IMG/VR virus record: IMGVR_UViG_3300047553_000075
Coordinates: 1 to 23,426 of that record
Strand: one strand, 5' to 3'
DNA: 23,426 nucleotides
DNA from: a virus
A model generated the notes under the pieces. It did no database searches. It was not told the DNA's origin and saw only the letters and a program-made list of their open reading frames with translations. Shown here piece by piece: positions 327-22,200 of this stretch; position 1 is the stretch's first letter; the number at the start of each line of letters is the position of its first letter. Position numbers and translations under genes: made by a program.

Positions 327-1093
327 TGACTGAAGCCACTCCTTCGCCGAAAGGCGATAGTAACCTGCCAAAAGCAGGTAAAGTGGCTCTTCTGGATTCT
401 GACTTCCTTTTGTATCACGTAGGGTTTGCATGTGAAAATGATGAAGACCCTCGTGATGCTAAGAACAGACTCACAGAATGGCTTACTGACATTGTGTACA
501 TGGATCTTATGTGCGATGACTTCAAAGCATTCATTACAGGGCCTAACAACTTCAGGTATGACGTAGCCAAGACAGTTCCTTATAAGGGTAACCGTAAAGA
601 TATGAAGCGACCTAAGCACCTTGATGAGCTTAAGAAGCACATGAAACGTCTAGGTGCTATTGAGACTGACGGCATTGAAGCTGATGATGCTGTATCAATA
701 GAGGTTCATAAAGCCCCTAATGCTTACCTTATAGTACATGTGGACAAAGACTTGAACATGATCCCAGGTAAGCACTACAACCCTGTTAAGTGTGAAGGCT
801 ATGTCGTAACTGAACTTGAGGCTTACTATAACTTCTGGACTCAGATGCTCACTGGTGACAGAGTTGACAACATCCCTGGCATTGCAGGCATTGGGCCTAA
901 GAAAGCTGAGAAGATTCTTAAAGGTCTAAGCTCTTATGATGAATATGCTAACGCTGTGTGGGCTACGTACAAGGACAAAGGACATGACTATGATTACTTT
1001 CTTGAGCAAGGTAGGCTGTTGTGGCTCCAACGATACGAAGGAGAGCAATGGCAACCATCAAGCGTAAATATACAGCCAAAAGAGCAGGACTGA
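326..1093 (+). CDS. 5'-3' exonuclease (PIN/H3TH flap-nuclease family, T7 gp6-like)
   Basis: A 255-aa protein that would degrade DNA 5' to 3', remove RNA primers and help break down host DNA. The acidic metal-binding residues of the family are visible: D24 and D26 (LLDSD), E118, D120 and D121 (IEADD), D140 and D142 (VDKD), and D178 and D181 (GDRVDN). These are followed by the helix-3-turn-helix signature IPGIAGIGPKKAEKIL at about 183-198, which grips the DNA backbone. The ATG overlaps the previous stop by one base (TAATG), so translation is probably coupled. Length and domain order fit the stand-alone relatives of the DNA polymerase I N-terminal nuclease. The last 15 codons overlap the endonuclease gene in another frame. 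Confidence 0.92.
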   Translation: MTEATPSPKGDSNLPKAGKVALLDSDFLLYHVGFACENDEDPRDAKNRLTEWLTDIVYMDLMCDDFKAFITGPNNFRYDVAKTVPYKGNRKDMKRPKHLDELKKHMKRLGAIETDGIEADDAVSIEVHKAPNAYLIVHVDKDLNMIPGKHYNPVKCEGYVVTELEAYYNFWTQMLTGDRVDNIPGIAGIGPKKAEKILKGLSSYDEYANAVWATYKDKGHDYDYFLEQGRLLWLQRYEGEQWQPSSVNIQPKEQD

Positions 1094-1461
1094 AACACGG
1101 ATACCGTTCAGGACTTGAAGACAAAGTAGCTAAGGCTTTACAAGACCTTGGGATTGATCCTAGATACGAACAGGAAAAGATTACTTATGTAGTCCCTGCT
1201 CGTAAAGCTACATACACGCCAGACTTCAAACTTCCTAACGGTATCTTTGTAGAGACTAAGGGTAGATTTGTCGTTGCTGATAGGCAGAAACATCTGTTCA
1301 TCAAGGCTCAACATCCAGAGCTTGACATCAGGTTTGTCTTCAGTAACAGCAAAGCTAAGATCAGTAAAACATCTCAGACTACTTATGCTATGTGGTGCGA
1401 ACAACATGGTTTCAAGTATGCTGACAAAGAAATCCCACAGGAGTGGTTAAATGGAAGTTAA
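1048..1461 (+). CDS. Endonuclease I, T7 gp3-like Holliday-junction resolvase
   Basis: A 137-aa homologue of T7 endonuclease I, which cuts branched DNA and takes part in host DNA breakdown and genome maturation. Blocks closely match what I recall of T7 gp3: RSGLEDKV, TYTPDF, LPNGIFVETKG, KHLFI, QHPELDIRFVFS and a C-terminal P-EW. The catalytic set E20, D55, E65, K67 of T7 corresponds to E24, D59, E69 and K71 here, a constant shift of four residues. A longer in-frame GTG at 1021 exists, but the ATG at 1048 is preceded by a good GAAGGAGAG ribosome-binding site and the protein then begins like its relatives. It overlaps the exonuclease gene by 46 bases and the next small gene by 11. Confidence 0.95.
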   Translation: MATIKRKYTAKRAGLKHGYRSGLEDKVAKALQDLGIDPRYEQEKITYVVPARKATYTPDFKLPNGIFVETKGRFVVADRQKHLFIKAQHPELDIRFVFSNSKAKISKTSQTTYAMWCEQHGFKYADKEIPQEWLNGS

Positions 1462-1618
1462 TCTTATCAAAGAGAACGAAGATGGTAGTGCAGACTTCAC
1501 CTTTGAATGCACTGCTGAAGAAACCAAAACGCTGCTTACATATGCTATTCGCAGAGCTATTGAAGAAGCTGTAAAGCAAGGCATGGAATGGATTCCACCA
1601 CAGGAGGAACAACAGTGA
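1451..1618 (+). CDS. Small acidic protein, 55 aa, unknown function
   Basis: ATG at 1451 lies inside the end of the endonuclease gene (stop at 1459-1461), and the stop TGA at 1616-1618 overlaps the GTG start of thyX, so the frame fits snugly between two well-identified genes. The protein starts MEVNLIKENEDGSADFTF, a beta-hairpin-like opening, then has an amphipathic helix (ETKTLLTYAIRRAIEEAVKQG) and ends in PPQEEQQ. No catalytic motif or membrane segment is visible and I do not recognise the family. The gene is supported by its overlap geometry, and it also carries the ribosome-binding site for thyX within its last codons. Confidence 0.75.
   Translation: MEVNLIKENEDGSADFTFECTAEETKTLLTYAIRRAIEEAVKQGMEWIPPQEEQQ
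1602..1607 (+). promoter_or_regulatory. Strong ribosome-binding site (AGGAGG) for thyX
   Basis: AGGAGG sits seven bases before a GTG at 1615. This near-perfect Shine-Dalgarno site decides the thyX start in favour of the GTG over an in-frame ATG at 1588, which would add nine residues with no good site of its own. Confidence 0.75.
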
Positions 1619-2307
1619 AGATTGCAAAGCAGTCAGTAGAGTTGATTGACTCGTGTGGGTCTGACCTGAGTGTGGTCAATGCCGCACGGGTAAGCTTCCA
1701 CAAAGAGTCTGATTGGACTAATGTTGGTGAATATGAGCACTGCCATAGTAAGATAGAACTTGCTGAGCGAGATGTTAAACTCATCAAGTATCTTGCAGAG
1801 CATAATCACAAGAGTCCATTCAATCATGCTTTCATGTCCTTCCGTGTCAAGGCTCCAATCTTTGTAGCACGACAGCTTGTCAAGCATGAGTATCTGCCTT
1901 GGAACGAAGTGTCTCGACGTTACGTTGACGAAGAGCCTGAGTTTTACTTTCCTGAATATTGGCGTAAGAAGGCTGATAATGTCAAGCAAGGAAGTAGTGA
2001 TGATAAGTTTGAATGGCGTCCCGGCTCTTGGGGTAAAATTGAAGAGGCTTACACGAGACTGCTGTTTGAGTATTTACACAACCCTGACTTGTGTCCTGAA
2101 CAGGCTCGTATGATCCTACCTCAGAACATGATGACTGAGTGGATCTGGAGTGGTACTCTGTTTGCTTTTGCTAAGATGTGCAACCTACGTCTAGACAGTC
2201 ATACACAGAAGGAAACACAAGAGATTGCTAAGATGATTCACGATACTGCTTCAACCCTGTTCCCCGTGTCGTGGAAAGCTCTGGTGAGTGATAAACATGC
2301 TACGTAA
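1615..2307 (+). CDS. thyX: Flavin-dependent thymidylate synthase ThyX
   Basis: A 230-aa ThyX that would convert dUMP to dTMP using FAD, NADPH and methylene-tetrahydrofolate, supplying thymidylate for phage DNA. Visible family features: NAARVSF at 22-28; HKSPFNH at 65-71, a nucleotide/FAD contact; the signature region at about 86-103 (ARQLVKHEYLPWNEVSRRY); and a C-terminal LPQNMMTEWIWSG followed by NLRLDSHTQKE, whose R192 matches the dUMP-binding arginine of the family. The usual RHR triplet of the signature is K90-H91-E92 here, with the downstream NExSxRY kept. The start is the GTG at 1615 after AGGAGG. It lies in the same operon as MazG-like and RNR genes, a nucleotide-synthesis group. Confidence 0.93.
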   Translation: MKIAKQSVELIDSCGSDLSVVNAARVSFHKESDWTNVGEYEHCHSKIELAERDVKLIKYLAEHNHKSPFNHAFMSFRVKAPIFVARQLVKHEYLPWNEVSRRYVDEEPEFYFPEYWRKKADNVKQGSSDDKFEWRPGSWGKIEEAYTRLLFEYLHNPDLCPEQARMILPQNMMTEWIWSGTLFAFAKMCNLRLDSHTQKETQEIAKMIHDTASTLFPVSWKALVSDKHAT

Positions 2308-4758: not shown

Positions 4759-5271
4759 ATGAAAAAATGTTCGACTTGTAGTGAAACTAAATTACTTACT
4801 GACTTTCCAGCAGGTAAACGTAAAGACGGCTCTATTTACTATAGGCCTCACTGCTATTCTTGTAAGTATGATAAAGAAACTCTAGCTGGTAGAAAGATCG
4901 ATAAAGAGTATCTAAGATCATACTACTATAAGAATAAACTTGATTACAAAATCAAGGCTTATAGACACAATGATAAGATTCGTTTTCCTGAATGCGAAAC
5001 AGTTGAAAAATATAGAGCTATTGAGCTAATGAAACAGCCTTGTTATTACTGCGGTAAGAAAGAGGCGTTGGGCTTAGATCGTATAGACAGCACTCAAGGA
5101 CATAGTGAAGATAACATTGTTCCTTGCTGTGAAAAATGTAACAATATCTTAGGGGATCTTCCAGAAAAAGCAAAAGATTTGCTAATCGACGGTCTTCATG
5201 AGATTAACAACCAAGGATTACTAGACCAATGGACAATTCCAACAAAGAGAAAAACCCGGACAACATCGTAA
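4759..5271 (+). CDS. HNH endonuclease with N-terminal zinc ribbon (probable homing endonuclease)
   Basis: A 170-aa protein. The N-terminal zinc ribbon has C4xxC7 and C32xxC35, as often seen in phage homing endonucleases. The HNH nuclease core follows: C95xxC98, LDRID at 106-110, GH at 114-115, N119, then C124xxC127-N128-N129. LDRID-x-GH-N-CxxCN is the classic beta-beta-alpha metal core. The middle part is lysine- and tyrosine-rich and the gene is visibly richer in A+T than the reductase it precedes. Such genes spread by cutting related genomes that lack them. It begins ten bases after the previous gene, and its last 43 bases hold the RNR start in another frame. No intron is evident because the RNR frame is intact. 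Confidence 0.9.
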   Translation: MKKCSTCSETKLLTDFPAGKRKDGSIYYRPHCYSCKYDKETLAGRKIDKEYLRSYYYKNKLDYKIKAYRHNDKIRFPECETVEKYRAIELMKQPCYYCGKKEALGLDRIDSTQGHSEDNIVPCCEKCNNILGDLPEKAKDLLIDGLHEINNQGLLDQWTIPTKRKTRTTS

Positions 5272-7172
5272 CTCCTTGGAGTTCAATCGGGCTGATTACA
5301 TACAAGCGCACATACGCTCGACGCTTGGATGAAAGCGATGTAAACAGTGATACTGAAGAATTCCACGACACAGTTGACCGAGTAGTAACTGCTGCTAATT
5401 CTCAATTGAAGTGTAACTTTGATGACGATGAGCAGCAGCGTCTACGTAACTATCTGCTGGGCTTGAAAGGCACTGTAGCAGGTCGGTTCCTGTGGCAACT
5501 GGGTACTAAGACAGTGGATACACTGGGACTCAGTAGCCTACAGAACTGTGCCTTCACAGTGGTAGACAAACCTGTAGAGCCTTTCACCTGGGCAATGGAT
5601 CTTCTGATGCTTGGCTCAGGTGTAGGCTATAACATCCAGAAAGAGAATGTTGAGAAACTTCCTGCTGTCAATGTGGATTTTAAGTGCCCTACTCGTAGTG
5701 ATACCAATGACGCTGACTTTATCGTTCCTGACTCTCGTGAAGGCTGGGTGGCACTTCTTGGTAAGACGTTGAAGGCTGCATTCCTGGCTCATAGCTCAGG
5801 TAAGCAAACGTTCACGTATAGCACTAAGATGATCCGATCCAAGGGTGCTCCTATCAAGGGCTTTGGTGGCACTGCTAGTGGCCCTGAAGACCTCGTGTGG
5901 GGCATCACTGAGATTGGTAAGATCCTTGAGAAACGTGCTGGTAAGAAAATTAAGCCCGTTGATGCTCTGGACATCATGAACATCATTGGTGCTGTGGTGG
6001 TTGCTGGTAATGTGCGCCGTAGTGCTCAGATTGCCATTGGAGATCCTGACGATGTGGAATATCTGCTTGCTAAGCGATGGGACTTGGGGAATATTCCCAG
6101 TTGGCGCGCAATGTCCAACAACAGCGTGGTTTGTCATGACATTGGAGATCTCCATGACTTCTTCTGGGACGGATATGAAGGTAAAGGAGAGCCGTATGGG
6201 CTCATCAACCTTAAGCTATCTCGAAAGATTGGACGCCTTGGAGAGACACAGTACCCTGATCCACAAGTACAAGGATATAACCCCTGTGCAGAACAGAGCC
6301 TAGCAGACAAAGAGACTTGCTGTCTTGCAGAAATTTACTTGCCTAACATTGACTCTAAGGAGGAACTGTTGGATGTAGCTACTTTGCTCTATCGTGTTAA
6401 TAAGCACTCCCTTGCACTACCTTGTCACTTGAAGTCTACTGAAGCTATTGTCCATGAGAACATGCGTATGGGCATTGGTATCACTGGTGTACTTCAGGCT
6501 ACTGAGGAACAGAAGAGTTGGCTTGATTGGGTGTATAAGAAACTCCGGAGTTATGATGAATGGTACTCACAAAAGAACGGCTTTAACAAATCGGTTAAAC
6601 TTACTACGGTTAAGCCTTCAGGGACTCTATCTCTGCTCCCTGGTGTCACTCCTGGGTGTCATCCTGCTTATGCTCGGTACATGGTACGTCGTATCCGCAT
6701 CAGCAGTAATCATTCTCTGGTTGATGTATGTCGTAAGCATGGATTCCCTGTGGAGTATCAACAGAATTTCGATGGCTCAGAGGATCGTAGTACTGTGGTT
6801 GTTAGCTTCCCTTTCACTCATGGCGACACTGCTGTACTTGCTTCTGAAATGACTGCTATCAGTCAATTGGAGACTGTTAAGTGGCTACAAGAGGTCTGGA
6901 GTGACAACAGTGTTTCCTGTACTGTCTACTATCGCAAGGAAGAACTTCCTGAGATCAAGAAGTACTTGAAGAAGAACTACAAGAACTCACACAAGAGTCT
7001 GTCATTCTTGTTGCACTCTGAGCACGGATTCAAGCAAGCTCCTCTTGAGGAGATCACTAAGGAGCAATACGATGAACTCGTCGCAAAGACTGTACCGATT
7101 ACTTCAATTAGTAATCTGGACATTGGTCTTGATGATTCTGAGTGTGCCACTGGTGCTTGCCCAATTCGCTAA
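5229..7172 (+). CDS. nrdJ: Class II (adenosylcobalamin-dependent) ribonucleotide reductase
   Basis: A 647-aa enzyme reducing ribonucleotides, probably triphosphates, to deoxyribonucleotides with coenzyme B12 and no oxygen requirement. Visible features: C107 in SLQNCAF (the family's N-terminal redox cysteine); a GSGVGYNI block at 129-136 of the ten-stranded barrel; NPC353AE355, in which N351, C353 and E355 match the catalytic N-x-C-x-E triad; the partner cysteine at 364/365 (ETCCLAEIYLP); KPSGTLSLLPGVTPG in the substrate loop; and a C-terminal pair C639/C644 (ECATGACPIR) that shuttles electrons. This matches the monomeric RTPR (Lactobacillus) type. The ATG lies within the HNH gene, with AAGGA 11 bases upstream. 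The host or habitat must supply B12. Confidence 0.95.
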   Translation: MDNSNKEKNPDNIVTPWSSIGLITYKRTYARRLDESDVNSDTEEFHDTVDRVVTAANSQLKCNFDDDEQQRLRNYLLGLKGTVAGRFLWQLGTKTVDTLGLSSLQNCAFTVVDKPVEPFTWAMDLLMLGSGVGYNIQKENVEKLPAVNVDFKCPTRSDTNDADFIVPDSREGWVALLGKTLKAAFLAHSSGKQTFTYSTKMIRSKGAPIKGFGGTASGPEDLVWGITEIGKILEKRAGKKIKPVDALDIMNIIGAVVVAGNVRRSAQIAIGDPDDVEYLLAKRWDLGNIPSWRAMSNNSVVCHDIGDLHDFFWDGYEGKGEPYGLINLKLSRKIGRLGETQYPDPQVQGYNPCAEQSLADKETCCLAEIYLPNIDSKEELLDVATLLYRVNKHSLALPCHLKSTEAIVHENMRMGIGITGVLQATEEQKSWLDWVYKKLRSYDEWYSQKNGFNKSVKLTTVKPSGTLSLLPGVTPGCHPAYARYMVRRIRISSNHSLVDVCRKHGFPVEYQQNFDGSEDRSTVVVSFPFTHGDTAVLASEMTAISQLETVKWLQEVWSDNSVSCTVYYRKEELPEIKKYLKKNYKNSHKSLSFLLHSEHGFKQAPLEEITKEQYDELVAKTVPITSISNLDIGLDDSECATGACPIR

Positions 7173-7193
7173 GCACTGCTAAGTAATCTCAAA

Positions 7194-7220
7194 AGGGCGA
7201 TAATGTGGCGTTATCGCCCT
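7194..7220 (+). terminator. Perfect 10-bp stem-loop after the RNR gene (terminator-like)
   Basis: AGGGCGATAA (7194-7203) pairs perfectly with TTATCGCCCT (7211-7220) around a 7-base loop. It starts 21 bases after the RNR stop. The downstream tract (AATAAGATATTTTAA) is only weakly T-rich, so it may be a leaky terminator or an RNA-stability/processing hairpin rather than a full stop; the downstream operon genes still need transcripts. Confidence 0.55.
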
Positions 7221-7243
7221 AATAAGATATTTTAAGGAATGAC

Positions 7244-7546: not shown

Positions 7547-7725
7547 TGAAGATCATCTACAGTACACCAACGTGCTCAGCATGTCGGAGGCTTAAGCAGC
7601 AACTGACTGAGAATGGCATTACTTATCAAGAAATCATGATCGGTAAAGACATCACCTATGAGGAGTTTGAAGATACTTTCCCAGGTGTACGTACTGTCCC
7701 TCATGTCGTGGAGTTGCCTGACTGA
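7546..7725 (+). CDS. Short glutaredoxin-like protein, 59 aa
   Basis: A thioredoxin-fold redox protein: beta strand KIIYSTPT, active-site CSAC at 10-13 (CxxC), helix RRLKQQLTENG, second strand ITYQEIMIG, then the TVP cis-proline motif at 50-52 that packs beside the active site. It stops eight residues later, so the usual end of glutaredoxins (a final strand, GG-x-D glutathione contact and last helix) is absent. The likely job is to hand electrons to the ribonucleotide reductase encoded just upstream. Start TAATG and stop TGATG overlap the flanking genes by one base each, so the short frame is not a sequencing truncation of a longer one in the same frame. Confidence 0.85.
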   Translation: MKIIYSTPTCSACRRLKQQLTENGITYQEIMIGKDITYEEFEDTFPGVRTVPHVVELPD

Positions 7726-8462
7726 TGGCTACTAAACGTAATCCTGATAACAACGTTGGTGAAGACTCTGGTAAGGCTAACTTGTCATTGAAGCTAAAGC
7801 TAGATGACATGATCACCATTTCACCTAAGACTGACAAACAAAGGGAGTTCTTTGATGCTTACAACAGTGGTCATTATTTTGTTGCTCTTCATGGTCTAGC
7901 AGGTACAGGTAAGACTTACATTGCAATGTATAAGGCTTTAGAGGAAGTACTAGATCGTAGTAATCCTTACGCTAAAGTCACTGTCATCAGGTCTGCTGTG
8001 CAGTCTCGTGACATGGGTCACTTGCCCGGTGACGCAGCAGACAAGATGGACATCTATACACAGCCTTATAAGCAAATCTGTGCTGATCTGTTCAAGCGTA
8101 GGGATGCTTGGAATAGACTTCAAGAGCAAGGACATGTAGAGTTTGTGTCTACCTCGTTCATCCGAGGCACTACATTCAACTATGGCATCCTTGTCGTTGA
8201 TGAAATGCAAAACATGAATAGTGAAGAGCTAGACACTATCATTACTCGTGTTGGACATACATCAAAGATTATCTTTTGTGGAGACTATAGGCAAACTGAT
8301 CTTAAGAAGAAAGAAGATCGTAGTGGCCTCTTGAAATTCATGAACATTTGTAGTAAAATGAAAGAGTTCACAAGGATCGAGTTTGGTGTTGATGACATCG
8401 TTCGTAGTTCTCTTGTGCGTAATTACATCCTAGCTAAAATGGCGTATGAGGACGAGCTATGA
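7725..8462 (+). CDS. phoH: PhoH-like P-loop ATPase
   Basis: A 245-aa ATPase of the PhoH family, very common in marine and freshwater phages. Visible: Walker A GLAGTGKT at 57-64, a conserved IRSAVQSRDMGHLPGD block at 88-103, RGTTF at 147-151, Walker B ILVVDE with Q162 (155-162), and GDYRQTD at 186-192, sensor-like. The family is related to the ATPase half of superfamily I helicases, and its phage role is unsettled (phosphate-stress response, RNA metabolism or nucleotide use have been proposed). The start overlaps the glutaredoxin stop (TGATG), and its stop overlaps the next start (ATGA). Family assignment is secure; function is not. Confidence 0.95.
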   Translation: MATKRNPDNNVGEDSGKANLSLKLKLDDMITISPKTDKQREFFDAYNSGHYFVALHGLAGTGKTYIAMYKALEEVLDRSNPYAKVTVIRSAVQSRDMGHLPGDAADKMDIYTQPYKQICADLFKRRDAWNRLQEQGHVEFVSTSFIRGTTFNYGILVVDEMQNMNSEELDTIITRVGHTSKIIFCGDYRQTDLKKKEDRSGLLKFMNICSKMKEFTRIEFGVDDIVRSSLVRNYILAKMAYEDEL

Positions 8463-8656: not shown

Positions 8657-8700
8657 CGCAGCGTAGCGAGCATCTACGAAGCAGTAATTTAGGCAACAAA

Positions 8701-8745
8701 AAAGCCCCTGCTAAGAGCACATAAGTGTTCCTAGACAGGGGCTTT
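8701..8745. terminator. Bidirectional Rho-independent terminator between converging arms
   Basis: AAAGCCCCTG (8701-8710) pairs perfectly with CAGGGGCTTT (8736-8745). Inside, CTA/TAG and GAGCAC/GTGTTC can extend the stem to an AT-rich tetraloop. A-rich sequence to the left (CAACAAAAAAG) and T-rich sequence to the right (CTTTGTTATTTAT) give a U-tract to transcripts from either side. It stands exactly where the plus-strand operon ends and the minus-strand structural operon ends, so it probably stops both and prevents head-on read-through. Confidence 0.9.
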
Positions 8746-19108: not shown

Positions 19109-20971
19109 TTAGATTTGCTGCCAGCCGCCGCCGAGCAGCATGATGGTGAAGCCTGCCGGGTCGGCCAATGCTCCACCAGTTCCGACCGTGAAAAACTGAA
19201 TTCGATCATTTCCAGTATTGCTGCTCAAAACGCTACATGCATACATATTCCCCCCGCCGTTCGTAGCCGGGGTTACAAGGACAGGATATTTTCCAGCAGC
19301 AAGGGCTTGACGATTGAATCTATATGTCAACGTGTAATCGCCTACACCATTACGAGTAACGGAAGTTATAAAGTTAGCTGACTGAAAGTCGAGTGTGGGG
19401 GTGGTCCCTGAAATAGAAACAGAGGCGTACAGTGGCAATACCCGTCGATCTACTGTCGGGCTTGTTTGACCTTCCCAATACACATTCACACTGTTCGTCG
19501 TGATGTAGTTGTTCTCAATGTCTGCCGTGTAGCTGTATGTGGCATTGGGAATGTAAATGGCTGCGTTCGCAAGGCGACCGTTTGTTGGAGTCGCTGCGTA
19601 ATTGCCCCGAATGGAATTGTTCTTGATCGACACGTTCTTGATCGACGCAGCATCGAGGCAGATCGCCCCTTCCACGTTGGTCCCTGCGCCGAAGTCGCCG
19701 TTCAAATGGTTGTTGAAGATCCGGGTCTGCCTAGTGTTCTCCACGTAAATTGCGTACTTGTAGGCCCCGCCTTCTTGCCAGCAGTTCTGGATGATCGGAC
19801 CGCCACCGTAGTCATAGGACTCGTTGGAATCTTCGATATGGATAATGTTGTACAGGGCATTGTTTGTTGTCGATTGGAACGTACAAGCATCCAGCAGGAA
19901 ACTGCCTCCAGAGATGTAGACAGAAGTTGCCTCGCAACCCGAAATCCAGCAGCCGTACATGCGCGAGATGTTGGCGCGTGTGGTTTGTAATGCTTGGACC
20001 GTCATGTCCTGGGCGCTGCTGGGCGTGCCGATCGGATATACATCCCACCACGCACCCTCAAAGCAAGAGAAGATGTTGCAATCGATCATGGCGGTGTCAA
20101 TGCAGCCATGCATCCATGCTGCGCGACCGCAGTTCTGAATGGTCACATTCTGAACAAGGCTCAATCCTGCGGACTGGTAGACGATGCCCGAGTGATTGTT
20201 GACAAGGTTGTGGCCGTCGATGGTCAGGTTGCGCACGGTGCAGTACTGCGCACCGTATCCCGTGCTGTTACCAAACCAGACCATCCCGCCCGCCCCCCAC
20301 GAGGGAGCCGACTTGATGATGGTGTGCTCCTGGCTCTCGCCGTAGAGCGTTCTGGCAATCGGGTTGGCCCCCCAGTCGCCAATCGTGCTGCTGATCAGGT
20401 AGGTGCCATTTGGGAAGTACACGGCCTTAGAGGCTGCGATAGCCGCATTGATGGCCGCCGTGTCATCGGCCACGCCATCACCAACAGCACCAAAGTCCTT
20501 CACGCTCACCGTCTCGCGCAGCTTGGTCTGCACAGTCGTGGCGACGGCTCCGGTGCCTGCTGGGGTGTAACTAACATAGTTAGCATCAGTGCTACCAATA
20601 GGAGCACTCTGCCAGATCATGACTTCAATGTTATCAGTACCGGACACAGGTGCCTCAGTAAAGGTAATAACATTGGTGGATACACTGAACGTATCTTTGT
20701 TTTGATAGATACCGTTGATGTAGATGTCTACCAAGTCTTCATTAACAGGCGTATGAGCCATCGTGAACACGGTAGTAACATCGTTACCACTAAAGTTCTC
20801 ACGATAGACAATAGCGGTACCTGAGCCTACTTCCACCACCGTACCAGTGGCGTCTTTGGTGTACAAACGACGATCAGTAGTATTGATAGCCAGTTCACCT
20901 TGGGTCAGATTAGCCGCAAGAGGAACTGCACCAGCAGTGCTGCTGTTCTTGGTGATGATAGTAGATGCCAT
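19109..20971 (-). CDS. Tailspike A: N-terminal anchor plus beta-helix (Pectate_lyase_3)
   Basis: A 620-aa tailspike. Residues 1-50 (STIITKNSSTAGAVPLAANL; TQGELAINTTDRRLYTKD) are a common virion-attachment start. A second small beta domain runs to about 130 (FSGNDVTTVFTMAHTPVNED). The beta-helix entry motif VSVKDFGAVGDGVADDTAAI follows at about 154-173, then many rungs with NVTIQNCG, MIDCNIFSC, IIQNCWQEGG and NVSIKNNSIRGN. The C-terminus is a beta-rich domain ending LGGGWQQI. It probably binds and may cleave a surface polysaccharide. The gene's first ~400 bases are A+T-leaning like the core genome, the rest G+C-rich, so the receptor part looks grafted onto a resident anchor. Confidence 0.92.
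   Translation of the reverse strand: MASTIITKNSSTAGAVPLAANLTQGELAINTTDRRLYTKDATGTVVEVGSGTAIVYRENFSGNDVTTVFTMAHTPVNEDLVDIYINGIYQNKDTFSVSTNVITFTEAPVSGTDNIEVMIWQSAPIGSTDANYVSYTPAGTGAVATTVQTKLRETVSVKDFGAVGDGVADDTAAINAAIAASKAVYFPNGTYLISSTIGDWGANPIARTLYGESQEHTIIKSAPSWGAGGMVWFGNSTGYGAQYCTVRNLTIDGHNLVNNHSGIVYQSAGLSLVQNVTIQNCGRAAWMHGCIDTAMIDCNIFSCFEGAWWDVYPIGTPSSAQDMTVQALQTTRANISRMYGCWISGCEATSVYISGGSFLLDACTFQSTTNNALYNIIHIEDSNESYDYGGGPIIQNCWQEGGAYKYAIYVENTRQTRIFNNHLNGDFGAGTNVEGAICLDAASIKNVSIKNNSIRGNYAATPTNGRLANAAIYIPNATYSYTADIENNYITTNSVNVYWEGQTSPTVDRRVLPLYASVSISGTTPTLDFQSANFITSVTRNGVGDYTLTYRFNRQALAAGKYPVLVTPATNGGGNMYACSVLSSNTGNDRIQFFTVGTGGALADPAGFTIMLLGGGWQQI
20454..20515 (-). repeat. 62-bp segment shared by both tailspike genes (copy 2)
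   Basis: Partner of 10253-10314; 52 of 62 bases agree by hand alignment without gaps. It encodes the same beta-helix entry motif in tailspike A and lies about 60 bases inside the composition change of that gene. Confidence 0.7.
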
Positions 20972-20976
20972 GAGTA

Positions 20977-21144
20977 TTATTCCTCAGTGTCGGATTGCTT
21001 AACAGATTTACGTACAGCTTTGGGCTTAGGTTCTTCAATGACCTCTGGTACTTGTTCGTACTCAGGATGTTCCAACATAGTCTTGATGTCATGCTCTTGA
21101 GTAAACTCAAAGACATTACCAGTGTGAATACATTTGAATTTCAT
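20977..21144 (-). CDS. Small protein after the coat gene, 55 aa
   Basis: ATG 21144 follows an AAGGATAAC site; stop TAA at 20977-20979. The product starts MKFKCIHTGNVFEFTQEHDI, continues KTMLEHPEYEQVPEVI and ends in a Lys/Glu-rich tail (EEPKPKAVRKSVKQSDTEE). The first part looks like a short beta-hairpin followed by a helix. Similar small proteins are often placed near coat genes in podoviruses (recollection); function unknown. It is the first gene after the coat terminator, so expression depends on read-through or a local promoter. Confidence 0.8.
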   Translation of the reverse strand: MKFKCIHTGNVFEFTQEHDIKTMLEHPEYEQVPEVIEEPKPKAVRKSVKQSDTEE

Positions 21145-21165
21145 GATGTTGTTATCCTTATCTAG

Positions 21166-21236
21166 TCTCTTTTAGAGATATTCTCAATTCTACATTGCAT
21201 TCGCAATTCATGAACTAAGAATATTTATAAAAGAGA
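21166..21236 (-). repeat. Long interrupted inverted repeat downstream of the coat gene
   Basis: TCTCTTTTA (21166-21174) is the exact complement of TAAAAGAGA (21228-21236), and ATATTCT (21178-21184) of AGAATAT (21218-21224), separated by a 3x3 mismatch. Inside the loop a smaller stem ATTGC (21194-21198)/GCAAT (21203-21207) forms. The outer arm shares bases 21232-21236 with the terminator stem, so the two RNA folds exclude each other. Confidence 0.65.
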
Positions 21237-21262
21237 TCCCCAGCGTTAACCGGGGAGTCTCT
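21232..21262 (-). terminator. Rho-independent terminator after the major coat gene
   Basis: Read on the minus strand, AGAGA-C-TCCCC pairs with GGGGA-TCTCT around a 10-base loop (one bulged base), followed by TTTTATAAAT. It starts 14 bases after the coat stop codon. This matches the position of the T7 terminator after gene 10 and would raise coat and scaffold mRNA over the tail genes. Confidence 0.85.
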
Positions 21263-21276
21263 CAATCAGTTACTGA

Positions 21277-22200
21277 TTAGGCAGGAACGGCAAGGGCAAC
21301 AGCGCCGTAGTCACGCAGTTCCTTGACGCCGTACAGGGTGTCAGAGGTGAACAGCGTACCCAGGTACTCTTGCTTGTACTGGGTCTGCGAACGCACACCA
21401 ACTTGCTCAGCCAGCACTGCGAAGTCCTTATGACCCATCAGGCAGATGCGGGTAGCAGTCGAGCCAGAGGTGGTGTCAGCGTTGTTAGACACAAACACAG
21501 GAACGCCGTAGACGTTACCGATTTCGCCGTTGCGGATGGTGTTGTTGCCGCCAACTTCGCCAACGAAGGCTTGCTCGGTGAAGCGGTTGATGCCCATCAG
21601 CGTGTTACGGCTAGACGGAGGAACGATCAGGAAACGACCGTCCATAGGAACGTCTTGGTCGTCCAGACGCTGGATGCTACGACGGATAGCAGAGTCAGCC
21701 AGAGCAGCCACACCAGTGTTGGTAGCAGCAACGTAGGCAGTCGTGCCGTCAGCGCCGGAGAAAGCACCAGAGTAAGCGTTGGTGCCAGAGCCACCTTGAA
21801 CGCCACGACCCAGTTGGATCACATCGGAGTCAACTTGGCGAGCCAGAGCGTAGCCAGCGTCTTCCGTGTAGAAGCGACGCAGCGAAGCCAGGGCTTGCAC
21901 TTCCGTGATGTCTTCGATCAAGCGGCTATATTCGTAGTGCTTGTCGATCAGAACAGCAACGTCAGACTCGGTAGCAGCAATCAGGGTAACCTGAGTCGAA
22001 GCAGCCTTCAGCGAAGCGTTGCCACGGGTGGGCACGGGAATGTGCAGCGTGTCGCCCTTCTTGCCCTTGAAGCTGATCTTCTTGACAAGGTTAGCAGCAA
22101 CGAGGCTACGCTTGTACGTGGCAACAATCTCGTCACTCCAGATCTCAGGAATGAAGGTTGCAGCGGTGGTGTTAGTAACGTGGTTAGAACCCAAAGCCAT
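21277..22200 (-). CDS. Major capsid (coat) protein
   Basis: A 307-aa coat protein. The opening FIPEIWSDEIVATYKRSLVA and GKKGDTLHIPVPTRGNASLK is typical of HK97-fold podovirus coat proteins (N-arm, then first spine/loop elements). Further blocks are DKHYEYSRLIEDITEVQALA, DQDVPMDGRFLIVPPSSRNT and GNVYGVPVFVSNNADTT, the last being the usual start of the C-terminal part. Codon use is rich in C/G-ending codons compared with neighbours, as expected for the most highly expressed gene. It is followed by a strong terminator and preceded by scaffold. Start ATG 22200 has AAAGGATAC upstream. Confidence 0.93.
   Translation of the reverse strand: MALGSNHVTNTTAATFIPEIWSDEIVATYKRSLVAANLVKKISFKGKKGDTLHIPVPTRGNASLKAASTQVTLIAATESDVAVLIDKHYEYSRLIEDITEVQALASLRRFYTEDAGYALARQVDSDVIQLGRGVQGGSGTNAYSGAFSGADGTTAYVAATNTGVAALADSAIRRSIQRLDDQDVPMDGRFLIVPPSSRNTLMGINRFTEQAFVGEVGGNNTIRNGEIGNVYGVPVFVSNNADTTSGSTATRICLMGHKDFAVLAEQVGVRSQTQYKQEYLGTLFTSDTLYGVKELRDYGAVALAVPA

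Follow-up and report, generated by a model that had tools for sequence, protein, structure and literature searches.

In an uncultured phage, the coat gene is followed by a predicted intrinsic terminator and by a longer hairpin that takes the foot of the terminator into its own stem. Related phages keep this layout with quite different letters, and, judging by this comparison of sequences, the overlapping hairpin is therefore probably a real RNA device, whose function is perhaps the separation of the coat message from the tail message. The window, i.e., the whole stretch of DNA analysed, comprises 23,426 bases and comes from IMG/VR, where it is a virus record; the relatives were also taken from IMG/VR.

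Results

A terminator and a second hairpin share bases downstream of the coat gene

Because the coat gene and its downstream neighbours are encoded by the minus strand, the letters given must be reverse-complemented to obtain the functional RNA. In this RNA, the 5'-to-3' order is coat stop codon, terminator, second hairpin, Shine-Dalgarno sequence, and a 55-codon open reading frame. The features are as follows.

1021-1461, plus strand: Endonuclease I gene (PHROG/Pfam searches)
1588-2307, plus strand: ThyX gene (PHROG/Pfam searches)
5229-7172, plus strand: B12-dependent ribonucleotide reductase gene (PHROG/Pfam searches)
7725-8462, plus strand: PhoH gene (PHROG/Pfam searches)
19109-20971: tail protein gene, following the 55-codon open reading frame
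20977-21144, minus strand: next gene, a 55-codon open reading frame starting MKFKC (sequence)
21155-21159, minus strand: AAGGA, the Shine-Dalgarno sequence of the next gene, which 6 unpaired bases separate from the hairpin (sequence, fold)
21166-21171, minus strand: 3' foot of the second hairpin, AAGAGA, a near-copy of the terminator 5' foot
21166-21236, minus strand: second hairpin, 27 bp, interrupted, complete only in read-through RNA
21236-21212 and 21190-21166, minus strand: arms of the second hairpin
21231-21236, minus strand: six common bases, both terminator 3' foot and second-hairpin 5' foot
21231-21263, minus strand: predicted intrinsic terminator, made up of a GC-rich core of 8 bp, a foot of 6 bp (GAGAGA/UCUCUU), and a U-rich tail
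21237-21256, minus strand: terminator core, folded in both states (folds; the same as terminator-scan match 21256-21237)
21258-21263, minus strand: terminator 5' foot, GAGAGA
21277-22200, minus strand: coat gene, encoding a major capsid protein of 307 aa (match to PHROG 267, major head protein, E 1e-54)

The coat gene product also matched Pfam Phage_capsid_2 and P22_CoatProtein. No match to the 55-codon open reading frame was found in Pfam or PHROG; small open reading frames like it were also seen, by eye, 3' of the coat gene in many relatives. Elsewhere in the window, the plus-strand early and minus-strand late blocks are separated by a strong, symmetric hairpin (8657-8743), which has T-runs on each strand and is likely a bidirectional terminator, and a 12-bp GC-rich hairpin (7173-7243, plus strand, fold z -3.5) comes right after the B12-dependent ribonucleotide reductase gene.

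The initial annotation had read a terminator at 21232-21262 and a long hairpin at 21166-21236 with AGAGA (21232-21236) in common. Both structures folded there, and the shared stretch turned out to be one base longer (21231-21236). Together, the terminator and the overlapping hairpin exceed chance. Folded alone, the terminator had an energy of -20.4 kcal/mol (z -5.2) and headed the list of terminators in the scan; its GC-rich stem is followed by a U-rich tract, as predicted for intrinsic terminators. The second hairpin alone reached -27.2 kcal/mol (z -7.1), a value equalled by none of 200 dinucleotide shuffles and, in a larger control, by none of 5000, the best of which gave -24.5 kcal/mol. For the whole minus-strand region, the energy was -45, whereas shuffles averaged -24.3 (z -5.6). 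With 27 bp of duplex between co-directional genes, the second hairpin has the long double-stranded form of a putative RNase III site.

The overlapping hairpin recurs among relatives

Relatives were collected by coat-protein searches of viral contigs. Once repeats had been merged, there were 136 distinct loci, the window included; two loci without a coat stop codon and three with too little sequence had been removed before counting, and loci first fetched later in the analysis stand outside these counts. The 124 loci in which a script found both the terminator and the next start were scored. In the other 12, the script found no terminator (four loci, which by eye do show a GC hairpin and a T-run) or no start (eight loci). 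A hairpin was counted if it began at the terminator foot and was equalled by no more than 1 of 100 shuffles.

The hairpin was present in 52 of the 124 scored loci, with a median of 17 bp. By length of the intergenic gap, it was found in 0/57 loci with 33 nt or less, 3/8 with 34-37 nt, 46/47 with 38-70 nt, 2/3 with 71-100 nt, and 1/9 with longer gaps. The hairpin is dispensable, as its absence from every locus in the shortest class indicates, and near sisters differ in it (L095 has the hairpin; L013 and L016 do not). In 51 of the 52 loci, hairpin and terminator have bases in common (median 5); L103 is the exception, with no common terminator base, and the automatic terminator call in L161 is doubtful. 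The layout is conserved by structure rather than by sequence, and the earlier impression of something beyond a plain terminator is supported.

A quick tree was built from the coat proteins of 124 rows; at least 20 changes are needed to explain the hairpin label on it, the hairpin being found in several deep branches and missing from one 30-row group. For this tree, four loci were relabelled by hand as hairpin-bearing, L030, L042, and L049 by reading their folds and L091 by kinship, and ten "nested" loci were picked by eye. When the co-directional intergenic gaps of nine relatives' contigs were folded, the post-coat gap was among the four most structured in seven; in G006 and G009, the gap after the recognised coat gene was not listed. 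The script missed the window's own gap because a spurious open reading frame probably covered it. Another strongly structured gap was noticed far from the coat gene, at 33844-33925 of G001, the contig that carries L007 (z -5.9). A genome-wide scan for a terminator with an overlapping hairpin was set aside, as its limits were loose and many matches fell within genes.

The intergenic gap is filled by the hairpin, which ends (3') 0-21 nt ahead of the start codon in all 52 loci. Such proximity would suit translational control, in which the second hairpin in read-through RNA hides or crowds the Shine-Dalgarno sequence and keeps the next protein low until a ribosome or a nuclease opens the hairpin. 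The Shine-Dalgarno sequence indeed starts inside the hairpin in 33/52 loci and in 16 of the 30 cluster representatives. In the window, however, it lies outside, 6 nt downstream, and 19 of the 52 loci are alike in this and yet keep the hairpin; we consider the explanation unlikely.

Some of the loci that fall outside the hairpin class carry a stem around the terminator, with 22 enclosing pairs in L120 and L157 and 19 in L023. L010, L024, and L039 have such a stem as well, and across the six loci it was equalled by 0-2 of 60 shuffles. The enclosing stem extends from close to the coat stop codon in the direction of the next gene's start, and could be a sib-like alternative to the following hairpin. 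Ten more distant loci, at 36-66% identity, came from MAG contigs; as read from folds alone, L234 (50%) resembles the overlapping type, and L231 and L235 resemble the enclosing type. Coverage of the same stretch by another stem in some relatives, and the nearly complete pairing of the gap, would be expected if the structures were passive armour, leaving almost no unpaired intergenic RNA, shielding it from RNase E and exonucleases, and stabilising both messages uncut. Why 51 of 52 hairpins reuse the terminator foot instead of standing beside the terminator would then be left unexplained, and we regard passive shielding as decidedly unlikely.

Structure is retained while letters diverge

The 52 loci formed 30 clusters at 80% identity, and the median pairwise identity of the clusters was 0.53 vs. 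0.50 for shuffled letters. Structure is retained and letters are not, the layout being kept at near-chance arm identity. In 176 sequence-only pairwise alignments, whose locus pairs are non-independent, paired columns in which both bases had changed still paired in 141 cases and failed to pair in 46. One-sided changes in these alignments kept pairing in 184 cases and broke it in 247, and 314 fell in gaps. A separate alignment, A1, was a chosen 22-row subset, mainly of the Shine-Dalgarno-containing type, which takes in L118, a locus not positive in the automatic count. The named structure was 89.1% paired in A1, and the covariation score was 0.448, compared to 0.211 for shuffled versions (0/500 as high) and at most 0.230 for slid versions; two of the five measures were unexceptional (both-side change, 45/500; further pair types, 78/500). 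Swapping arms between clusters changed the mean duplex energy from -14.3 to -4.6, and in 22 of the 30 clusters none of the 30 arms was a better partner than the own arm. The both-sided changes, the arm swaps, and A1 thus reveal conserved pairing of the outer arms across relatives, for which covariation analysis had been proposed.

The sense-strand fold was more stable than the antisense fold in 49 of the 52 loci (68% would be expected from composition, as estimated with shuffled letters), and on these grounds a function of the plus strand was ruled out.

One may ask if the hairpins are a by-product of composition, with U-tracts and Shine-Dalgarno sequences being complementary and generating spurious pairing. 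The outer helix in the Shine-Dalgarno-containing subset is in fact CCUUU/AAAGG, and weak versions are found in phages T7 (8 bp, -5.1 kcal/mol) and HTVC115P (-1.6 kcal/mol). Yet dinucleotide shuffles, which keep composition, fail to match the hairpins, and the inner helices covary, which contradicts a chance origin unless the covariation stems from faulty alignment. An accident of composition is scarcely credible.

The two feet are predicted to compete for the shared bases

Folding of successive transcript lengths of the window showed the full terminator in transcripts of 112 nt or less. Once the last AGAGA was present, at 114 nt, the terminator lost its outer 6 bp and the long hairpin gained its outer 9 bp in exchange, the 8-bp terminator core being unchanged and coexisting with the inner hairpin. 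The proposal that read-through RNA refolds and releases the terminator thus holds for the lower stem but not for the core, which stays; the folds predict that the feet, not the entire structures, are mutually exclusive.

Foot probabilities were calculated as equilibrium values in the absence of ribosomes and polymerase. At 10-25 °C, the terminator foot was preferred (0.85-0.74 vs. 0.14-0.24 for the hairpin foot); at 20 °C, nearer to an aquatic habitat, the values were 0.80 for the terminator foot and 0.19 for the hairpin outer helix, and at 37 °C the two feet were near balance (0.52 vs. 0.45). The initial annotation had asked if folding favours the long hairpin. It does so for the hairpin as a whole, whose mean pair probability in the full RNA was at least 0.5 in 45/52 loci, but less so for the outer helix, which reached at least 0.5 at 37 °C in only 23/52.

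The competing arm (21166-21190) is transcribed after the terminator, unlike that of an attenuator or riboswitch antiterminator. Since the arm is made after polymerase passage, the second hairpin cannot alter termination by pairing, and a termination-controlling switch was ruled out. The 3' end of the hairpin usually repeats the terminator 5' foot (CTAC/CTAC in L001, TATC/TATC in L007, GAGAGA/AAGAGA in the window), as the common bases pair with both partners. Competition is therefore built in, although only for the lower stem of the terminator.

A ribosome could, in principle, gate the choice: standing at the coat stop codon, it would cover the terminator 5' foot and free the shared bases for the hairpin. 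The terminator starts 3-12 nt past the stop codon, a distance about equal to the reach of a ribosome, in 41/52 loci, and 13 nt past it in the window. However, distances extend up to 21 nt, and terminators near stop codons are common. We give very little credence to this mechanism, by which coat translation would set which structure forms.

Discussion

A model for separation of coat and tail messages

No RNase III gene and no T7-type polymerase were found in the contigs of 16 relatives, which may be incomplete; T7 itself was detected as a positive control for the polymerase. Host enzymes are thus implied, and the use of a host polymerase with an intrinsic terminator is plausible. Of the functions suggested for the second hairpin in the initial annotation, that of an RNase processing site appears to fit best. 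We propose, with about even confidence, that a leaky terminator is combined with a read-through duplex, the cleavage of which by host RNase III would part coat mRNA from tail mRNA. The proposal builds on what is directly supported in silico: both structures, their overlap, conservation and covariation, the sense preference, and the fold exchange. The terminator would stop most transcripts, leaving coat mRNA in excess. A polymerase that reads through would make the second hairpin, the 5' foot of which is the 3' foot of the terminator plus the U-tract; the hairpin would nucleate from its loop and displace the lower stem of the terminator by branch migration. Host RNase III may then cut the 17-27-bp duplex, separating coat mRNA from tail mRNA. 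The upstream product would end in the freed U-rich foot, allowing the terminator hairpin to re-form and presumably to protect the coat mRNA, and the downstream product would begin near its Shine-Dalgarno sequence. The shared foot would matter in this scheme because it lets the terminator fold again after cleavage and cap the coat mRNA. Hiding of the Shine-Dalgarno sequence may add to the effect in 33/52 loci, the window not being one of them. Three points speak against the cleavage model: the exchange is not strongly favoured at equilibrium, the hairpin is dispensable, being absent from the shortest gaps and variable between near sisters, and no comparable hairpin was seen in the isolates examined.

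The opposite outcome of the same cut, i.e., degradation of coat mRNA from its new 3' end, would amount to retroregulation of the lambda sib type. The extra duplex is indeed made only on read-through, and six relatives (L120, L157, L023, L010, L024, and L039) have a terminator-enclosing stem. In the window, however, the terminator core persists and the terminator foot could pair again once the RNA is cut, so that protection would be predicted, and lowering coat mRNA would make little sense for a late structural gene. We therefore find retroregulation very unlikely.

A broader reading of the cleavage model, which we put forward only tentatively and think more doubtful, is that of a widespread phage read-through sensor. 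The 3' arm of the hairpin would mimic the terminator 5' foot, with one strand contested by two others and covariation among all three. The sensor would be idle in terminated coat mRNA; on read-through, it would swap the foot, possibly under ribosome gating, make a cut site, and return a protected coat mRNA, and an enclosing sib-like stem would sometimes replace it.

Among uncultured phages, a large group carries the element 3' of the coat gene. It makes an old question testable, namely how far more coat than tail protein is obtained from one transcript in phages that seemingly use the host polymerase. If cut as proposed, it would be a compact natural part that splits an operon at an unequal ratio. 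In the full-text literature, chiefly outside subscription journals, no paper describing such an element by title or abstract was found. Structured elements in bacterial 3' untranslated regions have been called highly unusual (PMC2864571).

Comparison with known systems

Searches of Rfam 15 at the gathering score gave no matches in the window or in 12 relatives, so the element is Rfam-unmatched in 13 sequences; sub-threshold matches were mainly to microRNA precursors, that is, generic hairpins. Nine isolates were folded (A-4L, Pf-WMP3, Pf-WMP4, CHP58, HTVC115P, TR020, Gjalp, MaAM05, and T7; six were re-measured), and none had a comparable compact hairpin overlapping a terminator. The helix of TR020 encloses large loops.

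In phage lambda, the sib/tI retroregulator of int has a terminator that joins a larger duplex only on read-through; the terminator sits inside the sib stem, and loss of the upstream mRNA follows. Plunkett and Echols are said to have described this system in 1989. The extra duplex of the window is likewise made only when the terminator is read through, but here the second hairpin follows and overlaps the terminator. The window has tandem helices and no duplex enclosing the terminator, and only some relatives have the enclosing form.

The terminator Tphi of T7, after gene 10, has a similar position, directly 3' of the gene for the major capsid protein and ahead of the next late gene. It differs in that only a short weak pairing follows (8 bp, -5.1 kcal/mol) and that T7 encodes its own polymerase. 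The R sites of T7 are intergenic hairpins cut by RNase III to give monocistronic mRNAs. Stretches after promoters 1.1A and 1.3, which we take to be R-site positions (absent from the annotation of the record), folded into hairpins of about 10 and 19 bp. These are intergenic phage hairpins as well, but they have no tie to the foot of a terminator.

The closest parallels to the proposed function are found in E. coli. Barry reportedly described, in 1980, an attenuator and an RNase III site at rplL-rpoB, where they part an abundantly expressed gene from a scarcer one, and Regnier and Portier are said to have reported the same class of arrangement at rpsO-pnp in 1986. At rplL-rpoB, rpsO-pnp, and pflB-pflA, a terminator-like element follows a highly expressed gene, read-through RNA is processed, and the neighbours are unequally expressed, as is proposed for the window. 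The rplL-rpoB attenuator and its downstream hairpins are separate in the predicted fold, whereas those of the window share a foot. RNase III cleavage at E. coli pflB and ahpC (pflB-pflA, ahpC-ahpF) stabilises the abundant upstream mRNA, and the transcript cleaved at pflB has already passed a strong terminator (PMC5371410). The ingredients are already known; what appears to be new is the foot-sharing arrangement after coat genes, maintained by covariation.
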